64,000 nt of DNA, taken from the NCBI RefSeq assembly GCF_011801145.1, contig NZ_CP046172.1:1-64000 (forward strand). Direction: 5' to 3'. A model generated the notes under the pieces. It was not told the DNA's origin. It ran no database searches and was given only the letters and a program-made list of their open reading frames with translations. Position numbers and translations under genes: made by a program. This stretch comes from Nocardia arthritidis (GTDB lineage Bacteria > Actinomycetota > Actinomycetes > Mycobacteriales > Mycobacteriaceae). Below, in pieces: positions 3,973 to 51,699 of the stretch (the first letter of the stretch is position 1; each line of letters begins with the position of its first letter).

Positions 3973-5157
3973 GTGTTCATACGGGCACTCGCGCTGCGCG
4001 ACTTCCGTTCCTGGGAGCACAGCGAACTCGAATTATCCCCAGGCCGAACGGTTTTCTTGGGATCGAACGGCAACGGCAAGACGAATCTGCTCGAGGCCGT
4101 CGGCTACTTGGCCACCCTCGGTTCGCACCGGGTGGCGGCCGACGCACCGCTCATCCGGATGGGAGCCGAGCGTGCGCGGATCGGTGCCACCGTTGTCAAC
4201 GCGGGCCGAGAGCTGCGCATCGATATCGAGTTGCAGCAGGGTGCGGCAAATCGCGCCCAGCTCAACCGATCTCCGGTGCGCCGACCCCGCGAAATTCTCG
4301 GCATCCTGCAGACGGTGCTGTTCGCGCCGGAGGATCTGGCCCTGGTCCGCGGCGATCCCGGTGAGCGCCGCCGGTTCATGGACGAACTGTGCACAACTCG
4401 GCTGCCCCGGCTCGCCGGTGTGCGTTCGGATTACGACCGGGTGCTGCGGCAACGCTCCGCGCTGTTGAAAACCGCTGGGCGCCACGTGCGTTCGAAGGCC
4501 GACCTGAGCACGCTCGATGCCTGGGACGGTCATCTGGCCACCCATGCCGCGGTGTTGCTGGCGCAGCGGCTCCGGCTGGTGCACGAGCTCTATCCACATC
4601 TGGCACAGGCATATCGGTCGATCGCGCCCGAATCACGCTCCGCCGCAATCGGATACCGCAGCTCCTATCTACCGCCGGAGTTCCTGGATCCGGCACGCGA
4701 ACCCCAGGCGGATGACACGGCGGAACTGGAGGCGATCGTGCTGCGGGAATTGGGCGCCGCGCGATCCAGGGAGTTGGAGCGCGGGGTCTGCCTGGTGGGC
4801 CCGCACCGCGACGAACTGGATCTGCTGCTCGGCACGGCACCCGCGAAGGGCTTTGCCAGTCATGGGGAATCGTGGTCTTTCGCGCTGGCGCTGCGGCTCG
4901 CCGCATTCGAACTGCTGCGCACCGCGGGTACCGAGCCGGTGCTCTTGCTCGACGATGTGTTCGCCGAACTCGATCGGCGCAGGCGCACGGCCCTGGCCGC
5001 GGTGGCGGCCGGCGCCGAACAGGTGTTGATCACCGCGGCGGTGCCGGAGGATGTGCCTGCCGAACTGGCGGCCGTACCGCTGCGGGTGGAAACCACCGGT
5101 GCGGCCGATCGGCGGACCTCGCACATCGTCGAGGCGGCGGGACCGGTCGCCGGGTGA
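3973..5157 (+). CDS. recF: DNA replication and repair protein RecF
   Basis: RecF is an SMC-like ATPase that, with RecO and RecR, loads RecA at gaps and stalled forks. The 394-residue product starts at GTG 3973 with [13 protein letters not shown], typical of RecF N-termini. It has Walker [13 protein letters not shown] (about residues 31-42), an ABC-type signature region ([20 protein letters not shown]) and Walker [12 protein letters not shown]. It lies 15 bp after dnaN and is probably co-transcribed; no strong Shine-Dalgarno is visible, consistent with translational coupling. A 444-bp spacer separates it from dciA. Confidence 0.97.
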
Positions 5158-5601
5158 TCGTTTCCACAGATATGACCTGATTTATCAACAGTTGTGGAGA
5201 GACCGATGACTCGTCACCTGACGAATCTCGGGTGCGGCCGCGGCAAACGCTCCACAGCGACATTGTGTACCGGACAGTGCCGGGACGCGCGGCGCACGGC
5301 GGCCGACGGTGCGCTGTCGTACAGTTGCCGTGCGTCGCGGCCCGCGCCGCGCCGTCGCCGTCCCGGATTATCCCCAGGACCTGTGGAGAACTTCGGTGCG
5401 GTGATCAGGTCTCGGATCTCAGCTATCGGCTGGACAGGCGGTGGCGGGGCCTGTGGGCAACTCGAATAATCACCACGAACGGGTGTTCGATCGACGACCG
5501 TGGTTGTGGGCCACCACGGAACCGTCCGCCAGCAACACCACCCCGAGGCTGGGGATAGTTGAACAAATCTGGGGACAACCCAGTCGGAAACGGAGCGTGC
5601 G
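5158..5601. other. Intergenic region rich in DnaA-box-like sequences
   Basis: No gene is supported in this 444-bp spacer between recF and dciA. It holds several DnaA-box-like motifs: GTTTCCACA (5160-5168), TTATCAACA (5182-5190), TTATCCCCA near 5367, TGTGGAGAA near 5382, and degenerate TGTGGGCAA and TGGGGACAA copies towards the right end. The dciA promoter probably lies here. I could not place -35/-10 boxes with confidence. Confidence 0.5.
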
Positions 5602-6159
5602 ATGACCGAGCAGCAGGGCGATCGGGAGCCCGGCGACGAGCCGGAATTGCGCGGTATCGACCTGGCCCGCCGGGCGCTGGAGGAGGCCAGGGCCGCGGCG
5701 CGGGCCAGCGGTAAATCGGTCGGTCAGGGCCGGGCCTCGCCGCGCCGGTCCCTGCGGACCGGTGCACGGCGGCGCACCGGTTGGTCGGGCGCCCGGCCCG
5801 ACGACCGGGACCCGCAACTGCTCTCCAGCCTCACGACATCGATCGCCAAGAGTCGCGGTTGGTCCGGAAAGGTCGCCGAGGGAACGGTTTTCGGCCGCTG
5901 GGCCGGTGTGGTCGGCGAGGATATCGCCGCACATGCCACCCCGATTTCGCTGAAGGACGGCGTGTTGAGCATCGCCGCCGAATCGACGGCCTGGGCCACC
6001 CAACTCCGGATGCTGCAGAGCCAGATCCTGGCGAAGATCGCCGCCGCGGTCGGCAACGGCGTGGTGACCTCGGTGAAGATCTCCGGCCCCGCGGCGCCCA
6101 GTTGGCGCAAGGGCGAGCGGCACATCAAGGGCCGCGGCCCGCGTGACACCTACGGATAA
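5602..6159 (+). CDS. dciA: DUF721 family protein, DciA-type helicase loader/operator
   Basis: The 185-residue protein has an acidic and basic low-complexity N-terminus (1-70) and a C-terminal DUF721 domain (about 80-160, with [36 protein letters not shown]). DUF721 proteins are the ancestral DciA group that interacts with the replicative helicase DnaB; this function is known for the family and not visible from sequence alone. In mycobacteria and relatives the gene sits between recF and gyrB, as here. The ATG at 5602 follows a GGAGCG-like site. Confidence 0.9.
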
Positions 6160-8719
<2,560 letters not shown>

Positions 8720-8780: not shown

Positions 8781-11294
8781 ATGACTGAGACCACGCTGCC
8801 CCCGAACGGCGGTGCAGGTGACCGGATCGAGCCGGTCGACATCCAGAACGAAATGCAGAGCAGCTACATCGATTACGCGATGAGCGTGATCGTCGGCCGT
8901 GCGCTGCCCGATGTGCGCGACGGCCTCAAGCCGGTGCACCGCCGCGTGCTCTACGCGATGTACGACAACGGCTACCGGCCGGATCGCGGCTATGTGAAGT
9001 CCGCCCGCCCGGTCGCCGAGACCATGGGTAACTACCACCCGCACGGCGACGCGTCGATCTACGACACGCTGGTCCGCATGGCGCAGCCATGGTCGCTGCG
9101 CTACCCGCTGGTGGACGGCCAAGGCAATTTCGGTTCGCGCGGTAATGACGGCGCGGCCGCGATGCGGTACACCGAATGCAGGCTGACCCCGCTCGCGATG
9201 GAGCTGCTGCGCGAAATCGACCATGAGACGGTCGATTTCGCGCCGAACTACGACGGCCGCTCGCAGGAACCGGTTGTCCTGCCGAGCCGGGTGCCGAACC
9301 TGCTGATGAACGGCAGCAACGGCATCGCGGTCGGTATGGCGACCAACATTCCGCCGCACAACCTCAACGAACTGGCCGAGGCCATCTACTGGGCGCTGGA
9401 GCACCACGACGCCGACGAAGAGGCCACCCTCGCCGCCTGTATGGACCGGGTCAAGGGTCCGGACTTTCCGACCTACGGCCTGATCGTCGGCAGTCAGGGC
9501 ATCCGCGACGCGTACACCACCGGTCGCGGCTCGATCCGGATGCGCGGCGTCGTCGAGATCGAAGAGGACAACCGCGGCCGCACCACGATCGTCATCACCG
9601 AACTGCCGTACCAGGTGAACACCGACAACTTCATCAACTCGATCGCCGAGCAGGTGAAGGACGGCAAGATCGCCGGCATCTCCGATATCCACGACGAGTC
9701 GTCGGACCGCGCGGGTATGCGGATCGTGGTGACCGTCAAGCGCGACGCGGTCGCCAAGGTCGTGCTGAACAACCTGTACAAGCACACCCAGCTGCAGACC
9801 AGCTTCGGCGCGAATATGCTCTCGATCGTCGACGGTGTGCCGCGCACGCTGCGCCTGGATCAGATGATCCGGCTCTACGTCGAGCACCAGTTGGACGTCA
9901 TCATCCGGCGCACCCGCTACCTGCTGCGCAAGGCCGAGGAGCGCGCGCACATCCTGCGCGGTCTGGTCAAGGCGCTCGACGCGTTGGACGAGGTCATCGC
10001 GCTGATCCGGCGGTCGGCCAATACCGATACCGCGCGCACCGGCCTTATGCAGCTGCTCGATATCGACGAGATCCAGGCGACGGCCATCCTCGATATGCAG
10101 CTGCGCCGCCTGTCCGCCCTGGAACGGCAGAAGATCATCGACGAGTTGGCCAAGATCGAGGCCGAGATCGCCGATTTGAAGGACATCCTGGAGAAGCCGG
10201 AGCGTCAGCGCGCGATCGTGCGCGACGAGCTCGCCGAGATCGTGGAGAAGTACGGCGACGAGCGGCGCACCCAGATCATCTCCGCCGACGGCGACGTCGC
10301 CGACGAGGATCTGATCGCCCGCGAGGACGTGGTCGTCACGATCACCGAGACTGGATACGCCAAGCGCACCAAGACCGATCTCTACCGCTCGCAGAAGCGC
10401 GGCGGCAAGGGTGTGCAGGGCGCGGGTCTCAAACAGGACGACCTGGTCAAGCACTTCTTCATCACCTCGACGCACGACTGGCTGCTGTTCTTCACCAACA
10501 AGGGCCGGGTCTACCGGGCCAAGGCGTACGAGCTGCCCGAGGCGAACCGCACCGCCCGCGGCCAGCATGTGGCGAATCTGCTCGCCTTCCAGCCGGATGA
10601 GCGGATCGCCCAGATCATCCAGATCAAGTCGTACGAGGACGCCCCGTATCTGGTGCTGGCCACCAAGAACGGCCTGGTGAAGAAGTCGAAGCTGTCCGAT
10701 TTCGATTCCAACCGCAGCGGCGGCATCGTCGCGGTGAACCTGCGCGACAACGACGAACTCGTCGGCGCCGTACTGTGTTCGGCCGATGACGACCTGCTGC
10801 TGGTGTCGGCGAAGGGGCAGTCGATCCGGTTCTCCGCCACCGACGAGGCGCTGCGCCCGATGGGCCGGGCCACCTCCGGCGTGCAGGGCATGCGGTTCAA
10901 TGCCGATGACGAGCTGTTGTCGCTCAATGTCGTTCGCGAAGACACCTATCTGCTGGTGGCGACTTCGGGCGGTTATTCCAAGCGCACCGCGATCGAGGAA
11001 TACACTCCGCAGGGACGTGGCGGTAAAGGCGTATTGACCATCCAGTACGACGAGCGGCGTGGCACGCTGGTCGGTGCGCTCATCGTCGACGACGAAGACG
11101 AGCTCTACGCGATCACCTCCGGCGGTGGTGTCATCCGCACGGCGGCGAATCAGGTTCGGAAGGCTGGACGACAGACCAAGGGCGTGCGATTGATGAACCT
11201 CGCGGATGGGGATACGTTGCTTGCTATCGCGCGCAACGCCGATGAACCCGACCCGGACGCCAACGACGACTCCACCGGTTCTTCCGATCAATAA
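8781..11294 (+). CDS. gyrA: DNA gyrase subunit A
   Basis: GyrA cuts and rejoins DNA. The 837-residue product shows the winged-helix/tower core with the catalytic tyrosine in [11 protein letters not shown] (about residue 130), the quinolone-resistance region around [20 protein letters not shown], and a C-terminal beta-pinwheel with the GyrA-box QRGGKGV ([13 protein letters not shown]). The QRDR reads G-D-A-S-I-Y, with Ser at the position equivalent to E. coli Ser83 and Asp at the following acidic position, so the wild-type sensitive pattern of many nocardiae seems present. A CTAAGGAG Shine-Dalgarno precedes the ATG. Confidence 0.99.
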
Positions 11295-45860: not shown

Positions 45861-46766
45861 ATGCCGATGCTATCGACAGCGAACACGGATTCCGTGCGAT
45901 GTACCACCTCCTCCGACTCGACGTGGGAGTGGGCGTTGGCCCGGCCGCATCCGTCTTTATCCCCTGGTGTGCGGGGCTATCGGGGATTCCGGCTCGATCT
46001 CGGGAGGGAACGGCAACGCTGGGATGCTCCCGACGGCCTGGTGTCCCTGTGGTTGTTCAACGACGAATTGACGGTATTCCTGGCGGACGGCGGATATCGC
46101 GGCCGACTCGTCGGTCATGCGATGAGCGGACTGCGGACGGGGGTGCGGGTCGCGCGGCACCTCGGCTACCTGGAGGGCGTCGAAGTGCTGCTGGAGCCGT
46201 GGGCCGCCTACAGCTTGTGCGCGGTCCCGATGGATCAGTTGGTCAATCGATTGGTGCGGCCGGAGGAAATCCTCGGCAGTCGGGTGCGGATATTGGCGGA
46301 GCGGATCGCGGACAGCCCATCGTGGGCCGATCGCTTCGCGCATCTGGACACCGCACTCCTCGGCTGGCTCGAGCACGGCCCGCCGTGCGCACCACAGGTC
46401 GAGTCGGCATGGCGCGCGTTGGCCGCGACCGGTGGGATGACGCCGATCCGCCGGCTCGTCCACGAATCCGGTTGGGGATGGCGGCAATTGGACAGCCGGT
46501 TCCGCGAGCAGATCGGTTTGAGCCCCAAGACCGCGGCTCGCGTGCTTCGCCTGCGCCGCGCACTGCACCGGCTCGACGCCACCGGGGATGCCGCGGGCAC
46601 CGCCGCGGTCTGCGGCTTCAGCGACCAAGCCCATCTCTGCCGGGAGATGCGGGCGATGGCGGGCCGCACGCCGCGCCGATATCTTGCCGAGCGCGCCACC
46701 GCGACCACCGCACCCGCCTGGGATCGGGACAGCGGCGCGGCGACAGTCACGGTGTCGGATGTCTGA
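45861..46766 (+). CDS. AraC-family transcriptional regulator
   Basis: This 301-residue protein has an N-terminal ligand-binding-like part (about 30-150; ARPHPSLSPGVRGYRGFRLDLG is the usual opening of the DUF6597-type AraC group) and a C-terminal AraC double HTH (about 200-285): IRRLVHESGWGWRQLDSRFREQIGLSPKTAARVLRLRRALHRL and TAAVCGFSDQAHLCREMRAMAGRTPRRYL. It lies 102 bp upstream of the six-cysteine peptide operon on the same strand, so it may control that operon; no operator is evident. Confidence 0.88.
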   Translation: MPMLSTANTDSVRCTTSSDSTWEWALARPHPSLSPGVRGYRGFRLDLGRERQRWDAPDGLVSLWLFNDELTVFLADGGYRGRLVGHAMSGLRTGVRVARHLGYLEGVEVLLEPWAAYSLCAVPMDQLVNRLVRPEEILGSRVRILAERIADSPSWADRFAHLDTALLGWLEHGPPCAPQVESAWRALAATGGMTPIRRLVHESGWGWRQLDSRFREQIGLSPKTAARVLRLRRALHRLDATGDAAGTAAVCGFSDQAHLCREMRAMAGRTPRRYLAERATATTAPAWDRDSGAATVTVSDV

Positions 46767-46868
46767 GCCGATCGCGACCGGTGCGAATTCCTTCAATACC
46801 TGGCCGAGTTTTACCGGCACTGTCATGGGTGCCACTCAGTCGGCGGAAATCAGATAAGGAGAGTTCTG

Positions 46869-47048
46869 ATGTTGAAGGTAATCGAGGGCCTGGGCGCTTC
46901 GCTGCTCAGTAGGTTCGTGCCCGAAATCGAGGCCGCGGCGGCTCACTGCTGGCCGGGACATTGGCCGCACTGCTGGCAGTGCAATAACCGGCCGTGCAAT
47001 GCCGTGCACTGCGATGACGGCAACGACTACGACATCCAGTGCCTGTAG
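46869..47048 (+). CDS. Six-cysteine precursor peptide (putative disulfide-rich RiPP/bacteriocin-like peptide)
   Basis: This 59-residue ORF starts at ATG 46869 behind AAGGAGAG (46856-46863). It has an amphipathic leader-like half (MLKVIEGLGASLLSRFVPE then IEAAAA) and a C-terminal half rich in Cys, Trp and His: AHCWPGHWPHCWQCNNRPCN followed by AVHCDDGNDYDIQCL. Cysteines are at 27, 35, 38, 43, 48 and 58. The AAAA stretch (22-25) suits signal-peptidase-type cleavage, giving a core of about 34 residues with three possible disulfides. The next four genes encode redox, export and protease proteins, which strongly suggests that this peptide is their substrate. I know no described family with this sequence. 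Confidence 0.75.
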   Translation: MLKVIEGLGASLLSRFVPEIEAAAAHCWPGHWPHCWQCNNRPCNAVHCDDGNDYDIQCL

Positions 47049-47146
47049 TCATCGCTTGAATGACCCAGCGAATATCCGGGTCGGGCCGCATACGGCGAGC
47101 CGCCAGCGGCCTGGCTCGGGCTGAAATTCGGATGATGGGCGGAGTA

Positions 47147-47704
47147 ATGAATTATCTGGGTATCGGAGTGAGCTGTTCGATCGGAACGATATTCGTGATC
47201 TCGGTTGTCGGCAAGATCGCGAGCCCGGGCTCGCTGGCCGCGTTCACCGCGTCGGTGCGGGATATGCGGGTGCTCCCCCCGTCCATGGCCCGGCGGTCGG
47301 CTATTTCCGTGGTCGCGATGGAGATCGCGGTATGCGCGCTGCTCGCTGCTCCGTACCGGGAGGCGCGGATGGCCGGATTAGGAATGGCCGCGGCACTGTT
47401 GACGATTTTCGCGGCGGCGGTGGTATCGGCGGTGCGTCGGGGGGTGCGCGAGCCGTGCCGGTGTTTCGGTCGGTCGAATACTCCACTGAGCTATTGGCAT
47501 GGCTTGCGCAATTCAATTCTTGCCACGATTTCGATCATCGGGGCCGCGGCGCTCGCGGCCGATGGTTCCGTGCAATTCGGTGGGGCCTTGTTCGCTGTTC
47601 TCGCGGGGATGCTGGCCGGTTTCCTGATCACCGTGCTGGACAGCATTGTCGAATTATTTCTGCCGGTTGCCAAGGTCTCTGGTACCGCCGGTGGCGTTGG
47701 ATGA
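47147..47704 (+). CDS. MauE/DoxX-type redox-associated membrane protein
   Basis: This 185-residue protein has about five transmembrane segments and the MauE signature REPCRCFGRSNTPLSYWHGLRNSIL, in which Cys104 and Cys106 (C-x-C-F-G) form the redox pair facing the outside. MauE proteins are needed for disulfide formation in methylamine dehydrogenase; here the neighbour with six cysteines is the likely client. The start ATG 47147 has GGGCGGAG upstream; ATG 47132 is an alternative. It is followed after 16 bp by a TlpA-type thioredoxin. Confidence 0.83.
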   Translation: MNYLGIGVSCSIGTIFVISVVGKIASPGSLAAFTASVRDMRVLPPSMARRSAISVVAMEIAVCALLAAPYREARMAGLGMAAALLTIFAAAVVSAVRRGVREPCRCFGRSNTPLSYWHGLRNSILATISIIGAAALAADGSVQFGGALFAVLAGMLAGFLITVLDSIVELFLPVAKVSGTAGGVG

Positions 47705-47720
47705 AAGACGAGGAGGAATC

Positions 47721-48254
47721 ATGACTTTCCTGCTGTGCGGTGTTGTGCTGGTCGGGCTGTTGTGCGCGCTGGACCTACTACTGACGGTTGGCGTTATCAA
47801 GCGTTTGCGCGAGCACACCGATTTGCTATCCAACAGGGACCGGGCCCCGATGATCGGTGTGGGGGAGGAGATCGGCGAATTCGAGGCGTCCACCGTGGAC
47901 GGCGAGCGGTTGAGCACCGAGCTGTTGGGGGATGAGACCCTGGTCGCCTTCTTCTCGCCGTCCTGCGGTCCGTGCAAGGAGAAGCTGCCGAAGTTCGTGG
48001 CATATGCCCGGGCCGCCGAGATTCCGCGACCGGTGGCGGTTGTCGTCGGCGCGGCCCATGAGGCCGAGGAGTTCGTGGCCGCGTTGCGCCCGGTGGCTCG
48101 GGTGGTCGTGGAGTCCGCCGACGGCGCGATGGGTACGGCATTCCGGGCACAGGCGTATCCGACGGTGCTGAAGGTGGGACCGGATCGATGGGGCAAGCTG
48201 GTGGTCCAGGCCAATCGGGTCGACCTCGATCAGCCTGCGCTGACCAGGTCATGA
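47721..48254 (+). CDS. TlpA/MauD-like membrane-anchored thioredoxin
   Basis: This 177-residue protein has an N-terminal TM anchor (about 3-27), then a thioredoxin-like domain with ETLVAFFSPSCGPCKEKLPKF; the active site is CGPC (82-85). MauE and MauD-type thioredoxins commonly occur as a pair in which MauE passes reducing or oxidising power to the thioredoxin. The ATG has AGGAGG at optimal spacing. It overlaps the exporter gene by 4 bp (ATGA). Confidence 0.88.
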   Translation: MTFLLCGVVLVGLLCALDLLLTVGVIKRLREHTDLLSNRDRAPMIGVGEEIGEFEASTVDGERLSTELLGDETLVAFFSPSCGPCKEKLPKFVAYARAAEIPRPVAVVVGAAHEAEEFVAALRPVARVVVESADGAMGTAFRAQAYPTVLKVGPDRWGKLVVQANRVDLDQPALTRS

Positions 48255-50107
48255 GCGGGCCGGTACCGGGTGGGCAGCCGACCACCGCCGTCCGGGTCCG
48301 GGTCATGGCGGCCGGTCGAATGGCGGTGGTGGCCGCGCCAGGGGTCCTGGCGTTCCATCTGGTGTTCACCTTGATCACCGGGGTTTTGCCGGTAGTCGGT
48401 GCGTGGCTCACGACGCTGATGCTGGATTCGATCGTGGCCAAGGCGGGGGCCGATGTCCTGCTGTGGCTGGCCGTGGGGTTAGGCGGGACGAGCGCGGCAA
48501 CTGCCGTCGGGCCGCAAGTGACGCGATATCTGCGGGCGCAACTGGATCGCGAGGTCGGGTTGGTCGCGCAGGATCGGCTGTTCACGGCGGTAGAGGGGTT
48601 CGACGGACTGCGGCGTTTCGAGGATCCACGATTCCTGGACCGCTTGCGGCTGGCCCAGCAGGCAGGCGGCGCGACACCGGGCGCCGTCATCGATGGCGCG
48701 TTGGGTATTGCCAGGGCGGTGCTGACCATTTCCGGATTCCTCGGCTCGCTGCTGCTGCTCAGCCCGCTGATCACGGTGATAGTGCTGGCGGCGGGCGTGC
48801 CGACGGTGGTGGCCGAATTACGCCTTTCGCGGCGACGCGCCCGCATGCTGTGGGATATCGGCCCGGTCGAGCGGAAGGAGATCTTCTACAGCAGGCTGCT
48901 GAGCAGCGTCGAAGCGGCGAAGGAGGTGCGGCTGTTCGGAATCGGCGCATTCCTCCGGGATCGGATGAACGCCGAACGCCGCACAGCGAATCGGGCCAAG
49001 CAGCTGGTGGACCGCCGCGAAGCGGGCATCCAGGCGGGCGCGGCGCTGCTGGCCGCGGTGGTGGCCTCCAGCGGCCTGCTCTGGGCGATCTACCAGGCGC
49101 TGGACGGCAGGTTCTCGGTCGGCCGGGTGACCCTCTTCGCCGCCGCGGTGGCCGGAGTGCAGGGCGCGCTCATCTCCTTCGCCGGCGATCTGGCACGGTC
49201 GCATCAGGCATTGTCGATATTCGACAACTACCTCGCGGTGCTCTCGGCCGACCCGGACCTACCGGTGGCCGACCCACCCCTGGCGCTGCCGGAACTGCGT
49301 AGCGGGATCGAGTTCCGGGATGTGTGGTTCCGATACGCCGACGATCATCCGTGGGTGCTGCGCGGCGTGAACCTGCGAGTTCCACGTGGAACCTCACTTG
49401 CCTTGGTCGGGGCGAACGGTGCCGGAAAGTCCACGCTGGTGAAGTTGTTGTGCCGGTTCTACGACCCGACCAGGGGCACGATCCTCTGGGACGGGACGGA
49501 TATCAGCAAGGTGGATCCCGCCGCGCTGCGGGCGCGGATCTGCGCGGTATTCCAGGACTACATGCAGTACGACCTGACCGCCGCGGAGAATATCGGCGTC
49601 GGCGATCTGGATGCGTTGCGCGATCGACCGCGGCTCACGGCGGCGGCGGATCTCGCCGGTGTCCATCGGAAGCTGGCGGGGTTGCCCCGTGGATATGACA
49701 CCTTGTTGTCCCGGGTGTTCTTCATGGAGGCGGATAAGGACAATCCGGAGACCGGTGTGGTGCTGTCCGGCGGGCAGTGGCAGCGGATCGCCTTGGCCCG
49801 GGCGTTCCTGCGCGACCGGCGGGAGCTGATGATTCTGGATGAGCCGTCCGCGGGCCTGGACGCATCGGCCGAACATCGAATTCACTGCTCGCTGCGGCGG
49901 CATCGCGCGGGACGGACCAGCCTGCTCATCTCGCACCGCTTGGCCGCGGTCCGGGAGGCGGACCACATCGCGGTGCTGTCCGAGGGACGAATTGTGGAGC
50001 AGGGCAACCACGCTCAGCTGATGGCGGCCGGCGGGGAATACGCCGGACTCTTCACGACACAGGCCGCGGGCTATCGGGACGCGATCGGTGCGGAGGCGCT
50101 CGCGTGA
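48251..50107 (+). CDS. ABC transporter with fused permease and ATPase (peptide exporter type)
   Basis: This 618-residue half-transporter has six transmembrane segments (about 25-320) followed by an ATPase domain with Walker A ALVGANGAGKSTLVKLL, signature VLSGGQWQRIALARAF and Walker B LMILDEPSAGLDASAEHRI, and H-loop LLISHRLAAVREAD. There is no N-terminal C39 peptidase domain, so leader removal must be done by another protein, which is plausibly the S26 peptidase encoded next. It overlaps that gene by 4 bp (GTGA). A parS site (49379-49392) lies within this gene. Confidence 0.9.
   Translation: MSGPVPGGQPTTAVRVRVMAAGRMAVVAAPGVLAFHLVFTLITGVLPVVGAWLTTLMLDSIVAKAGADVLLWLAVGLGGTSAATAVGPQVTRYLRAQLDREVGLVAQDRLFTAVEGFDGLRRFEDPRFLDRLRLAQQAGGATPGAVIDGALGIARAVLTISGFLGSLLLLSPLITVIVLAAGVPTVVAELRLSRRRARMLWDIGPVERKEIFYSRLLSSVEAAKEVRLFGIGAFLRDRMNAERRTANRAKQLVDRREAGIQAGAALLAAVVASSGLLWAIYQALDGRFSVGRVTLFAAAVAGVQGALISFAGDLARSHQALSIFDNYLAVLSADPDLPVADPPLALPELRSGIEFRDVWFRYADDHPWVLRGVNLRVPRGTSLALVGANGAGKSTLVKLLCRFYDPTRGTILWDGTDISKVDPAALRARICAVFQDYMQYDLTAAENIGVGDLDALRDRPRLTAAADLAGVHRKLAGLPRGYDTLLSRVFFMEADKDNPETGVVLSGGQWQRIALARAFLRDRRELMILDEPSAGLDASAEHRIHCSLRRHRAGRTSLLISHRLAAVREADHIAVLSEGRIVEQGNHAQLMAAGGEYAGLFTTQAAGYRDAIGAEALA
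49379..49392. promoter_or_regulatory. parS site inside the exporter gene
   Basis: GTTCCACGTGGAAC is a perfect 14-bp palindrome fitting the ParB-site core GTTYCACGTGRAAC at every position. It encodes part of the exporter (RVPRGTSLALVGA). It lies about 47 kb from oriC, within the range typical for parS clusters around the origin. Confidence 0.85.
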
Positions 50108-50619
50108 GGCTCATGAGTGGGGCGCTCTGGCTGGCGGTCGCGATCCTGCGCCGGGAACTCGTCGCGGTGACCGTGCGTGGCGCGAGCATGGAACCCGCCT
50201 ATCGCAACGGGGACCGAGTACTGGTCCGGCGCGGTGTCCTCCCGGCTCGCGGAGAGGTCGTTGTCGTGGAGCTGCACAGTGAGCCGTGCGAATGCGCCGT
50301 CCGCAAGTGGATGATCAAGCGGGTGGCCGCGGTACCCGGGGACCCGGTTCCGCGTGCGCAGGTTCCGGCATTGGCTCAGGTGCTGGAGGATCGCGTGCCG
50401 CAGGGACAGCTGGTGCTGCTGGGCGATAACGGGCAGATCAGCTTCGATTCGAGGCGGATCGGTTATGTCCCGGTGGCGCGAGTGCTGGGTCCGGTGCTGT
50501 GTCGCCTGCCGGGTTCACCGACCCGGTCAGGTCAGCACGCAGTGGGTGCCGGTGTAGATGGTCGGCATGCAGCGGTTGCAGTGTGTGCACGGAGAGGTCG
50601 AAAGTTCTTGCGCGCGTAG
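50104..50619 (+). CDS. S26-family signal peptidase (LepB-like, small)
   Basis: This 171-residue protein has a short N-terminal hydrophobic segment (about 5-22), the catalytic serine motif VRGASMEPAYRNGDRVLV (Ser28), the lysine motif IKRVAAVPGD (Lys72) and the closing motif LVLLGDNGQISFDSRRIGYVPVARVLG. It is much smaller than housekeeping signal peptidase I and fits a dedicated leader peptidase for the peptide cluster. The last 30 codons overlap the convergent oxidoreductase gene by 93 bp and may be a non-functional tail, since the conserved domain ends near residue 138. Confidence 0.85.
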   Translation: MRLMSGALWLAVAILRRELVAVTVRGASMEPAYRNGDRVLVRRGVLPARGEVVVVELHSEPCECAVRKWMIKRVAAVPGDPVPRAQVPALAQVLEDRVPQGQLVLLGDNGQISFDSRRIGYVPVARVLGPVLCRLPGSPTRSGQHAVGAGVDGRHAAVAVCARRGRKFLRA

Positions 50620-51699
50620 GTGATTGACCAGGTTGGGGTCGTAGAGCAGGGCTCGGCCCATGGCGACGAAGTCGAAGCCTTCGGTCATGGCGGTTTCGAT
50701 GGCGGCGCGGGATGCTATGCCGCCCAACAGGATCAGGGGGATGGTGAGGTCGCCGCGGAAGAGGCGGGCCTGGTCCAGGAGGTAGGTCTCGTGGAATGGG
50801 TAGGCGCGGAAGAAGCGGTGGCCGATCAGCTGGATGCCGAGGCGTTGCGGCTGGCGGAACTGGGCGGCGAATTCCCGTAGCGGGACGTCGCCGCGGAAGA
50901 GGTACATAGGGTTGCGCAGGGAGCTGCCCGCGGTGAGCTCGAGGGCATCCAGGTTGCCGTCTTCGGCCAACCAGCCTGCGACGGTGCGGCTTTCGTCGAC
51001 GGTGAGGCCGCCGCGCACGCCGTCGTCCATATTGAATTTGGCGAGTACCGCGAGTTCGTGGCCGACCTCGGTACGCACGGCGTCGGCGACCTGCCTGGCC
51101 AGGCGGGCGCGGTTGGGCAGTGCGCCGCCGTACTCGTCGCGGCGCTTGTTTAGGGCGGGGCTGAGGAAGGCGCTGACGAAGTAGTTGTGGCCGAAGTGCA
51201 GTTCGACGGCGTCGAATCCGGCCTGGACGGCGAGGCGGGCGGCGGTGGCGTGCGCGTCGATCACCCGGCGGATATCGGCACGGGTGGCCGACCGGGTGAC
51301 CCGCAGGCTGAGTGGACTGAGCTGCCGGGAAGGTGCGAGGGCTGGCAGCCGGTTGGATGCGGCGTTGGCCACCGGGCCCGCATGTCCCAATTGCGCCGAG
51401 ATGGCGGCGCCCTCGGCGTGGACGGCGTCGGTCAGGCGGCGTAGGCCGGGCAGCGCCTCGGGACGCATCCAGAGCTGATGACGATCGGTTCGGCCCTCGG
51501 GTGCGACCGCGCAGTAGGCGACGGTGGTGAGGGCGGCGCCGCCCGCCGCGACGGCGCGGTGGAATTCGATGAGCTCGTCGGTGACCAGCGCGTCCGGGGT
51601 GCGGCCCTCGAAGGTCGCGGCCTTGATGATGCGGTTGCGCAGACGCACCGGCCCGAGCATGGCCGGGCGGAATGCGTCGCGCGTCGCGGCTTCCGACAT
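50527..51699 (-). CDS. Old-yellow-enzyme family NADH:flavin oxidoreductase
   Basis: This 390-residue (beta/alpha)8-barrel flavoprotein has LGPVRLRNRIIKAATFEGRTPD at the N-terminus, SAQLGHAG, the substrate His/Asn pair in FDAVELHFGHNYFVSAFLSPALNKRRDEYGG, and a C-terminal cysteine-rich stretch SPCTHCNRCMPTIYTGTHC that resembles the [4Fe-4S] cluster motif of 2,4-dienoyl-CoA-reductase-type OYEs, although the N-terminal part alone is present. Such enzymes reduce activated C=C bonds, for example in sterol or aromatic breakdown. It is divergent from the SDR gene across a pair of KstR-like boxes. Confidence 0.88.
   Translation of the reverse strand: MSEAATRDAFRPAMLGPVRLRNRIIKAATFEGRTPDALVTDELIEFHRAVAAGGAALTTVAYCAVAPEGRTDRHQLWMRPEALPGLRRLTDAVHAEGAAISAQLGHAGPVANAASNRLPALAPSRQLSPLSLRVTRSATRADIRRVIDAHATAARLAVQAGFDAVELHFGHNYFVSAFLSPALNKRRDEYGGALPNRARLARQVADAVRTEVGHELAVLAKFNMDDGVRGGLTVDESRTVAGWLAEDGNLDALELTAGSSLRNPMYLFRGDVPLREFAAQFRQPQRLGIQLIGHRFFRAYPFHETYLLDQARLFRGDLTIPLILLGGIASRAAIETAMTEGFDFVAMGRALLYDPNLVNHLRAQELSTSPCTHCNRCMPTIYTGTHCVLT

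Follow-up and report, generated by a model that had tools for sequence, protein, structure and literature searches.

What is made by a locus in which a short open reading frame (ORF) with six cysteines stands directly upstream of two thiol-redox genes, an exporter and a peptidase? The question is raised by positions 46,869 to 50,619 of the window, i.e., the first 64,000 nucleotides of contig NZ_CP046172.1 of Nocardia arthritidis (assembly GCF_011801145.1), a 10.0-Mb one-contig genome. An initial annotation, made from the sequence alone, had proposed a pathway that oxidises, exports and processes a three-disulfide peptide. We consider it highly probable that these genes form a self-contained cassette for making a ribosomal disulfide-rich peptide, with leader-guided export, oxidation by MauE and TlpA, and cleavage by an S26 peptidase. 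The genes lie in the order AraC regulator, precursor, MauE, TlpA, ABC exporter and S26, all on the + strand. The parts of the cassette are as follows:

46869..47048, + strand: precursor peptide gene, 59 amino acids (ORF, conserved in G012, another Nocardia genome)
46869..46943, + strand: leader, residues 1-25, with a VPxxxAxA ending (conservation of P18, A24 and A22 in a 56-row alignment)
46944..47045, + strand: core, residues 26-59 with six Cys, predicted to be the 34-residue mature peptide (Cys conservation, model)
47147..47704, + strand: MauE-type membrane redox protein, CxCFG (PF07291, E 8.3e-23)
47721..48254, + strand: TlpA/MauD-like membrane-anchored thioredoxin-fold protein, CGPC (closest relative; best Pfam matches under the curated cut-offs)
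48251..50107, + strand: ABC exporter, permease fused to ATPase, without a C39 peptidase domain (PF00005, E 4.8e-29)
50104..50619, + strand: S26 signal-peptidase-like protease, predicted leader peptidase (PF10502, E 9.3e-20)

The six-cysteine precursor is a conserved gene

The annotation had described a 59-residue ORF with Cys at positions 27, 35, 38, 43, 48 and 58, a leader-like half closing in AAAA and a strong Shine-Dalgarno site. All of these are in place, the AAAA at residues 22-25 and the Shine-Dalgarno-like site as AAGGAG ahead of the ORF. When 60 genomes were searched with the window precursor, matches besides its own genome were found in G012 and G023. The G023 match is short, weak and without cassette genes. 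The G012 homologue occupies the same place within the same gene order (AraC-precursor-MauE-TlpA-ABC-S26), is 66% identical over the full length and keeps six of the six Cys. Between the window and G012 precursors, the rates of non-synonymous and synonymous substitution (dN and dS) are 0.26 and 0.81, giving a dN/dS of about 0.32 (NG86 counts); the annotation had named a lack of purifying selection as grounds for discarding the peptide. A chance ORF was rejected on the basis of the G012 homologue with its six Cys, this dN/dS ratio and near-empty control scans (below).

The G012 peptide has two additional Cys, aligned to window positions H47 and D53, and it looks as if one whole disulfide had been gained or lost. 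The window peptide belongs to a CWQC subfamily of eight precursors, in which it holds 6 Cys and the seven others hold 8 or 10; it thus looks like the three-disulfide form of a subfamily with at least four disulfides. In an AlphaFold2 model built from eight sequences, residues 31-59 form three strands with a predicted local distance difference test (pLDDT) score of 82-86 by blocks, the leader is a low-confidence helix, and the predicted template modelling score (pTM) is 0.42. The calculated monoisotopic mass of the predicted 34-residue core with three disulfides is 4029.5; for a form of 35 residues it is 4100.6.

Precursor and cassette lead to each other

An exporter scan with one genome per species gave 64 loci, of which 16 (L006-L021) are close, with 45-66% identity. 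Their hosts are Streptomyces, Actinoplanes, Micromonospora, Microbispora, Nonomuraea, Streptosporangium, Actinomadura, Couchioplanes and a Nocardioides metagenome-assembled genome, and at 12 of the 16 a Cys-rich ORF carrying the common leader is present. In the opposite direction, a profile of 14 precursors matched at least 45 places in at least 22 of 394 genomes of the class, a lower bound because scoring stopped at 16 candidates per genome. Outside the window lie 44 of these places, in 38 regions; cassette genes are present in 36 of the regions, and the other two (L142 and L143) look like chance. Among 150 genomes of the genus, the exporter was found at E 1e-120 in five, each time with a precursor at the locus.

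With iterated profiles, 59 loci were compared. The ABC exporter is present in 56, TlpA in 55, MauE in 54, S26 in 53 and the precursor in 51, and all five parts stand together at 47 loci, in 13 arrangements. These loci were picked by exporter or precursor similarity, so that natural frequencies cannot be read from the counts. A search with TlpA alone, in which up to 8 candidates per genome were scored, gave at least 39 places in at least 20 of the 394 class genomes. A precursor with the standard leader lies near 36 of the 39 places. Thirty of the 39 fall within loci already in the set; of the nine new ones, six have a precursor, none was found at two, and the remaining place belongs to the window genome's own cystine-knot-like locus, described below. 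The absence of a conserved short Cys-rich ORF from homologous loci, which the annotation had named as its refutation, is therefore not what is seen (51/59 and 36/39, respectively).

Could the redox, export and peptidase proteins serve other exported clients, with the Cys-rich ORF as a mere neighbour? The window genome does hold eight MauE-family matches, four of them over the cut-off, and two of the others adjoin Cys-rich ORFs. However, precursor and cassette each lead to the other through the 13 arrangements, and the control scans are nearly empty. The 716 kb lying up to 6.5 kb from the exporters hold 62 matches to a leader-plus-4-Cys pattern (58 with the strict leader). By contrast, the outer 299 kb of the same loci hold 6 (strict 1), 701 kb from unrelated loci hold 5 (strict 0), and the other 57 kb of the window hold none; the patterns were modelled on these same leaders, and the strict form was written after the leaders were seen. 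This explanation is largely refuted and is, in our estimate, highly improbable.

A database search with the precursor profile gave 32 proteins besides the window's own, and those named by their source are hypothetical or uncharacterised. For none of the 56 aligned precursors was there a Pfam or NCBIfam match at E 0.01. Tandem variant copies of the precursor are found at L115, L122, L123, L133 and L144, with up to three non-identical copies (L122, L123).

Two Streptosporangium loci with MauE, ABC and TlpA, L016 and L018, carry short Cys-rich ends (10026 and 10002, +; MYCFCNSGRWCCATTTYYACYDHGC) that lack the usual leader. No S26 gene was found at either, and these ends are perhaps a leader-free variant.

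A shared leader precedes hypervariable cores with even cysteine numbers

The precursors share the leader lGDRlLxRlVPxxxAxA, and their cores are hypervariable: 60 precursors from 51 loci gave 57 distinct cores in 38 core clusters at 50% identity. The core statistics exclude four ORFs that lack the leader helix (L012, L108, L131, L138), removed by hand, and include one L011 precursor (minus strand), added by hand from past the distance limit. In an alignment of 56 precursors P18 and A24 are invariant and A22 is conserved in at least 90%, which points to a signal-peptidase-like Ala-x-Ala site directly before the core, although the scan required A/G/S/V-x-A/G/S after VP, so that this conservation is partly selected for.

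Leader and core differ sharply in composition and in divergence. In the distinct set, Cys accounts for 1 of 1319 leader residues and 412 of 2256 core residues. For leader-15, identity is 42% (shuffled 23%), and core identity is 27% (shuffled 25%). Over 15 non-independent pairs, the pooled dN/dS values are 0.053/0.229 for the leader and 0.141/0.277 for the core, and among aligned core positions 107 of 110 Cys are unchanged, compared with 364 of 463 other residues. The Cys number is even in 51 of the 57 distinct cores (p 3e-10), in 34 of the 38 core clusters (p 3e-7) and in all seven precursors of the TlpA-found loci, hand-counted from Ala-x-Ala.

These numbers bear on the idea that the Cys bind metal, in which the peptide would be a secreted metal chelator and MauE and TlpA would keep its Cys reduced. 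The Cys-rich core and some His in the window member would suit such a function, and TlpA-family proteins frequently act as reductases. However, even counts in 51/57 cores and paired gain or loss of Cys speak for disulfides, Cys number and spacing vary freely among cores, unlike a metal site, and the leader carries an S26-type site. A metal chelator was rejected as first choice on account of the even counts, the paired gain and loss and the variable spacing; we regard it as very unlikely.

The redox, export and peptidase proteins keep their active sites

The family assignments of the annotation hold for the four proteins downstream of the precursor. The MauE protein matches PF07291 with 81.5 bits, against a Pfam cut-off of 27, and has PCRCFG at 103-108; both Cys of the CxC are present in 54 of 54 aligned relatives. 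For the CGPC protein the best Pfam matches are under the curated cut-offs, but its closest relative, from Nocardia sp. CDC159, carries the name TlpA, and the CxxC is kept in 56 of 56 relatives. The exporter matches PF00005 and, as had been claimed, no C39 domain was found in it by the Pfam scan, so that it does not fall among the C39 (peptidase-containing ABC transporter, PCAT) exporters; its Walker A motif is kept in 56/56. The last protein belongs to family S26, with its Ser28/Lys72 dyad in 53 of 53 aligned relatives. Since active-site residues are kept in all aligned relatives, each part of the cassette would be expected to be active. The 4-bp overlaps that the annotation had noted between the last three genes are at 48251-48254 (TlpA/ABC) and 50104-50107 (ABC/S26). 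Class-defining enzymes of ribosomally synthesised and post-translationally modified peptides (RiPPs), namely those of lanthipeptides, lasso peptides, sactipeptides and the YcaO type, were found neither in the five window genes (Pfam, NCBIfam) nor in the AraC gene (Pfam).

The presence of MauE and a MauD-like protein might also suggest a mau-type system for the maturation of methylamine dehydrogenase. The TlpA-like protein, however, scores 21.1 bits against the MauD equivalog TIGR02661, whose cut-off is 188.6, and none of the five genes is a mau structural gene; the mau system was rejected for these two reasons and is almost certainly not the explanation. A genome search for the methylamine dehydrogenase light chain had no match, but the control also matched nowhere, so this result carries little weight.

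The S26 frame and a convergent ORF (50527-51699, - strand) overlap by 93 bp (50527-50619).

A proposed pathway and its product

By comparison of sequences, the locus is characterised by conservation, co-localisation, retained active-site residues, even Cys numbers and a leader/core split. From these we infer the reactions, their order, the membrane side and the role of the product. Under AraC-type control the 59-residue precursor would be made, and its helical leader (lGxxLLxRFVP) would direct it to the ABC exporter. In the core, MauE and the TlpA/MauD-like protein would join the six Cys into three disulfides and shuffle these, and the S26 peptidase would cut behind the conserved Ala-x-Ala and release a mature product about 34 residues long.

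As for the product, we lean slightly towards an antagonistic secreted peptide, bacteriocin- or defensin-like. SARP (BTAD)-like regulators lie near 29 of 57 loci, mostly without an intervening gene, and three representatives have BTAD by Pfam; neighbour families were built as connected components, and a false strand (L020) may be among them. The genome background of BTAD is 309 matches in 104 Mb of twelve genomes, about 3 per Mb. The SARP neighbours, together with the patchy distribution, the tandem variants and the hypervariable cores, favour an antagonistic secondary metabolite. The same pathway might instead make a signal or developmental peptide of the producer, or a surface-active morphogen. 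A small exported peptide with a dedicated peptidase and regulators nearby would fit such a role, as would the fact that no immunity gene was recognised in the cassette. Nevertheless, hypervariable cores, up to three tandem non-identical copies and patchy distribution fit arms-race peptides better, and the SARP neighbours point to secondary metabolism; a signalling role appears rather unlikely to us.

Several observations weigh against the cassette for an exported, oxidised and antagonistic peptide as we have drawn it. No immunity gene was recognised, and the regulator gene of the window locus is of the AraC type, with no SARP beside it. In the automatic scan no passing precursor was found at 8 of the 59 loci (L014, L016, L018, L021, L130, L141, L142 and L143, the last two being the chance regions), and none was found when looked for at the TlpA-found loci L150 and L154. 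The Cys number is odd in 6 of the 57 distinct cores, i.e., twice in L011, twice in L012 (one group), and in L020 and L126, the last with a Tyr where L124 and L125 have Cys. For three of the 15 pairs (L105/L106 and the tandem pairs within L122 and within L123), core dN equals or exceeds dS; purifying selection thus does not hold for every core, and these pairs may reflect diversification. No match was found in the PDB for the predicted model of the window peptide (pTM 0.42). Finally, mean Lys/Arg in TlpA is 0 over positions 1-20, where the membrane helix lies, and 3.95 over the following 20. In MauE it is 4.08 at 21-40, 0.58 at 61-80 and, in the region of the CxC, 2.26 at 81-100 and 2.13 at 101-120, so that the CxC loop carries positive charge. 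The positive-inside rule would place the redox sites of both proteins on the cytoplasmic side, which would misfit the simplest picture of oxidation outside the cell.

The odd counts of L011 and L012 come from four Actinoplanes and Micromonospora precursors with 9 or 11 Cys, in which one Cys may be used otherwise.

A more far-reaching version, which we put forward tentatively and think improbable as a whole, is that of an unnamed, separate actinobacterial class of ribosomal peptides with a VPxxxAxA leader and three to five enzyme-made disulfides as the sole modification. MauE and TlpA would act on the cytoplasmic face before the ABC protein exports the folded peptide, and the same redox-export core would also have been recruited for cystine-knot peptides of Nocardia.

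Regulatory elements and further loci of the window genome

Three further features surround the precursor gene of the proposed cassette:

45861..46766, + strand: AraC-type transcriptional regulator (PF12833, E 2.5e-13)
46783..46799, + strand: 17-bp element GCGAATTCCTTCAATAC, candidate promoter/operator (exact match 5' of the precursor in G012)
47049..47146, + strand: precursor-mauE spacer, stable hairpin possible (folding energy z -2.34; 5 of 200 shuffles equally good)

The AraC-type gene is likely the cluster regulator, and relatives of it lie close to the precursor at five loci (L004, L007, L008, L009 and L019). The 17-bp element occurs in 6 of 161 loci, every one from the window genome or G012, and not in the stretches from other genomes. 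No U-tract terminator was found in the spacer, whose hairpin is a weak candidate for a possible attenuator.

A second MauE-TlpA-ABC locus of the window genome (L147, G000:C1:8152000-8170000) has a short ORF at 9536-9724 (-), the last six Cys of which show inhibitor-cystine-knot spacing; a relative is found in L159 at 7806-7955 (-). ORFs of this type were seen in G000 and G546 among the 150 genus genomes, with a weak third match in G533, and a profile search of 298 genomes of the order gave, besides the window genome, just three weak and chance-like matches outside Nocardia. Fold matches of the short ORF are weak and exclusively to cystine-knot peptides. The ABC exporter frame of L147 (9885-11960, +) continues into a glutaredoxin-like domain, PF00462, and may be fused to an adjacent redox gene. 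A third MauE/TlpA-like/ABC locus (L165, G000:C1:5500500-5516500) lies at 4694-7998 (-). Between its TlpA-like and ABC genes stands a 59-residue, 10-Cys ORF (6636-6815) with a Shine-Dalgarno-like site and without the standard leader, and no S26 gene was found at this locus.

Relation to known systems

Like sublancin and other glycocins, the cassette combines a ribosomal peptide with ABC export and dedicated disulfide enzymes. Glycocin systems use C39-type exporters, Bdb/thioredoxin proteins and a glycosyl transferase, whereas the cassette has S26, MauE and the VPxxxAxA leader. Defensin, knottin and laterosporulin peptides resemble the window peptide in being short, with 6-10 Cys and, as the model predicts for the latter, a small beta-sheet core, but no solved structure matched the window peptide convincingly in sequence or fold. 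The beta subunit of methylamine dehydrogenase contains six disulfides, and MauE and MauD of that system are related to the proteins found here at the level of protein families, but the client here would be a short leader peptide, and the MauD equivalog model does not apply. MauE has been speculated to assist disulfide formation in that subunit (PMC7794033).

The closest precedent is decRiPPter (Kloosterman et al. 2020, PMC7794033), which listed three Streptomyces candidate RiPP families with mauE, one of them also with mauD, and with precursors of at least 8 Cys. Its strict filter required a transporter, a peptidase and a regulator, and RiPP modification was proposed (PMC7794033). As in those families, the mauE homologue of the window adjoins a short Cys-rich ORF; unlike them, the window precursor has 6 Cys (its nearest relative, L004, has 8). 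What the decRiPPter text says of the mauE families includes no leader motif, named peptidase type, S26 link, even-Cys rule or experiment, the comparison being one of descriptions. Searches of an open literature library found no further relevant paper. What is new relative to that text is the leader rule and the even-Cys rule, the connection with S26, the occurrence across several genera, the association with SARP regulators and a Nocardia member with 6 Cys. The novelty is lessened by its mauE-containing Cys-rich Streptomyces candidates. Gene set, conservation and active sites support the pathway that the annotation had proposed, but its statement that no such system had been described was too strong.

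With a simple rule, the leader motif plus MauE, TlpA, ABC and S26, 57 distinct cores, Cys-rich and hypervariable, came to light at 51 loci. Stable multi-disulfide peptide scaffolds are mostly known from animals and plants. If the proposed pathway is true, these loci would represent a bacterial route to such scaffolds that is compact in its gene content, and the chemistry of MauE and MauD would become testable on a client of about 34 residues.

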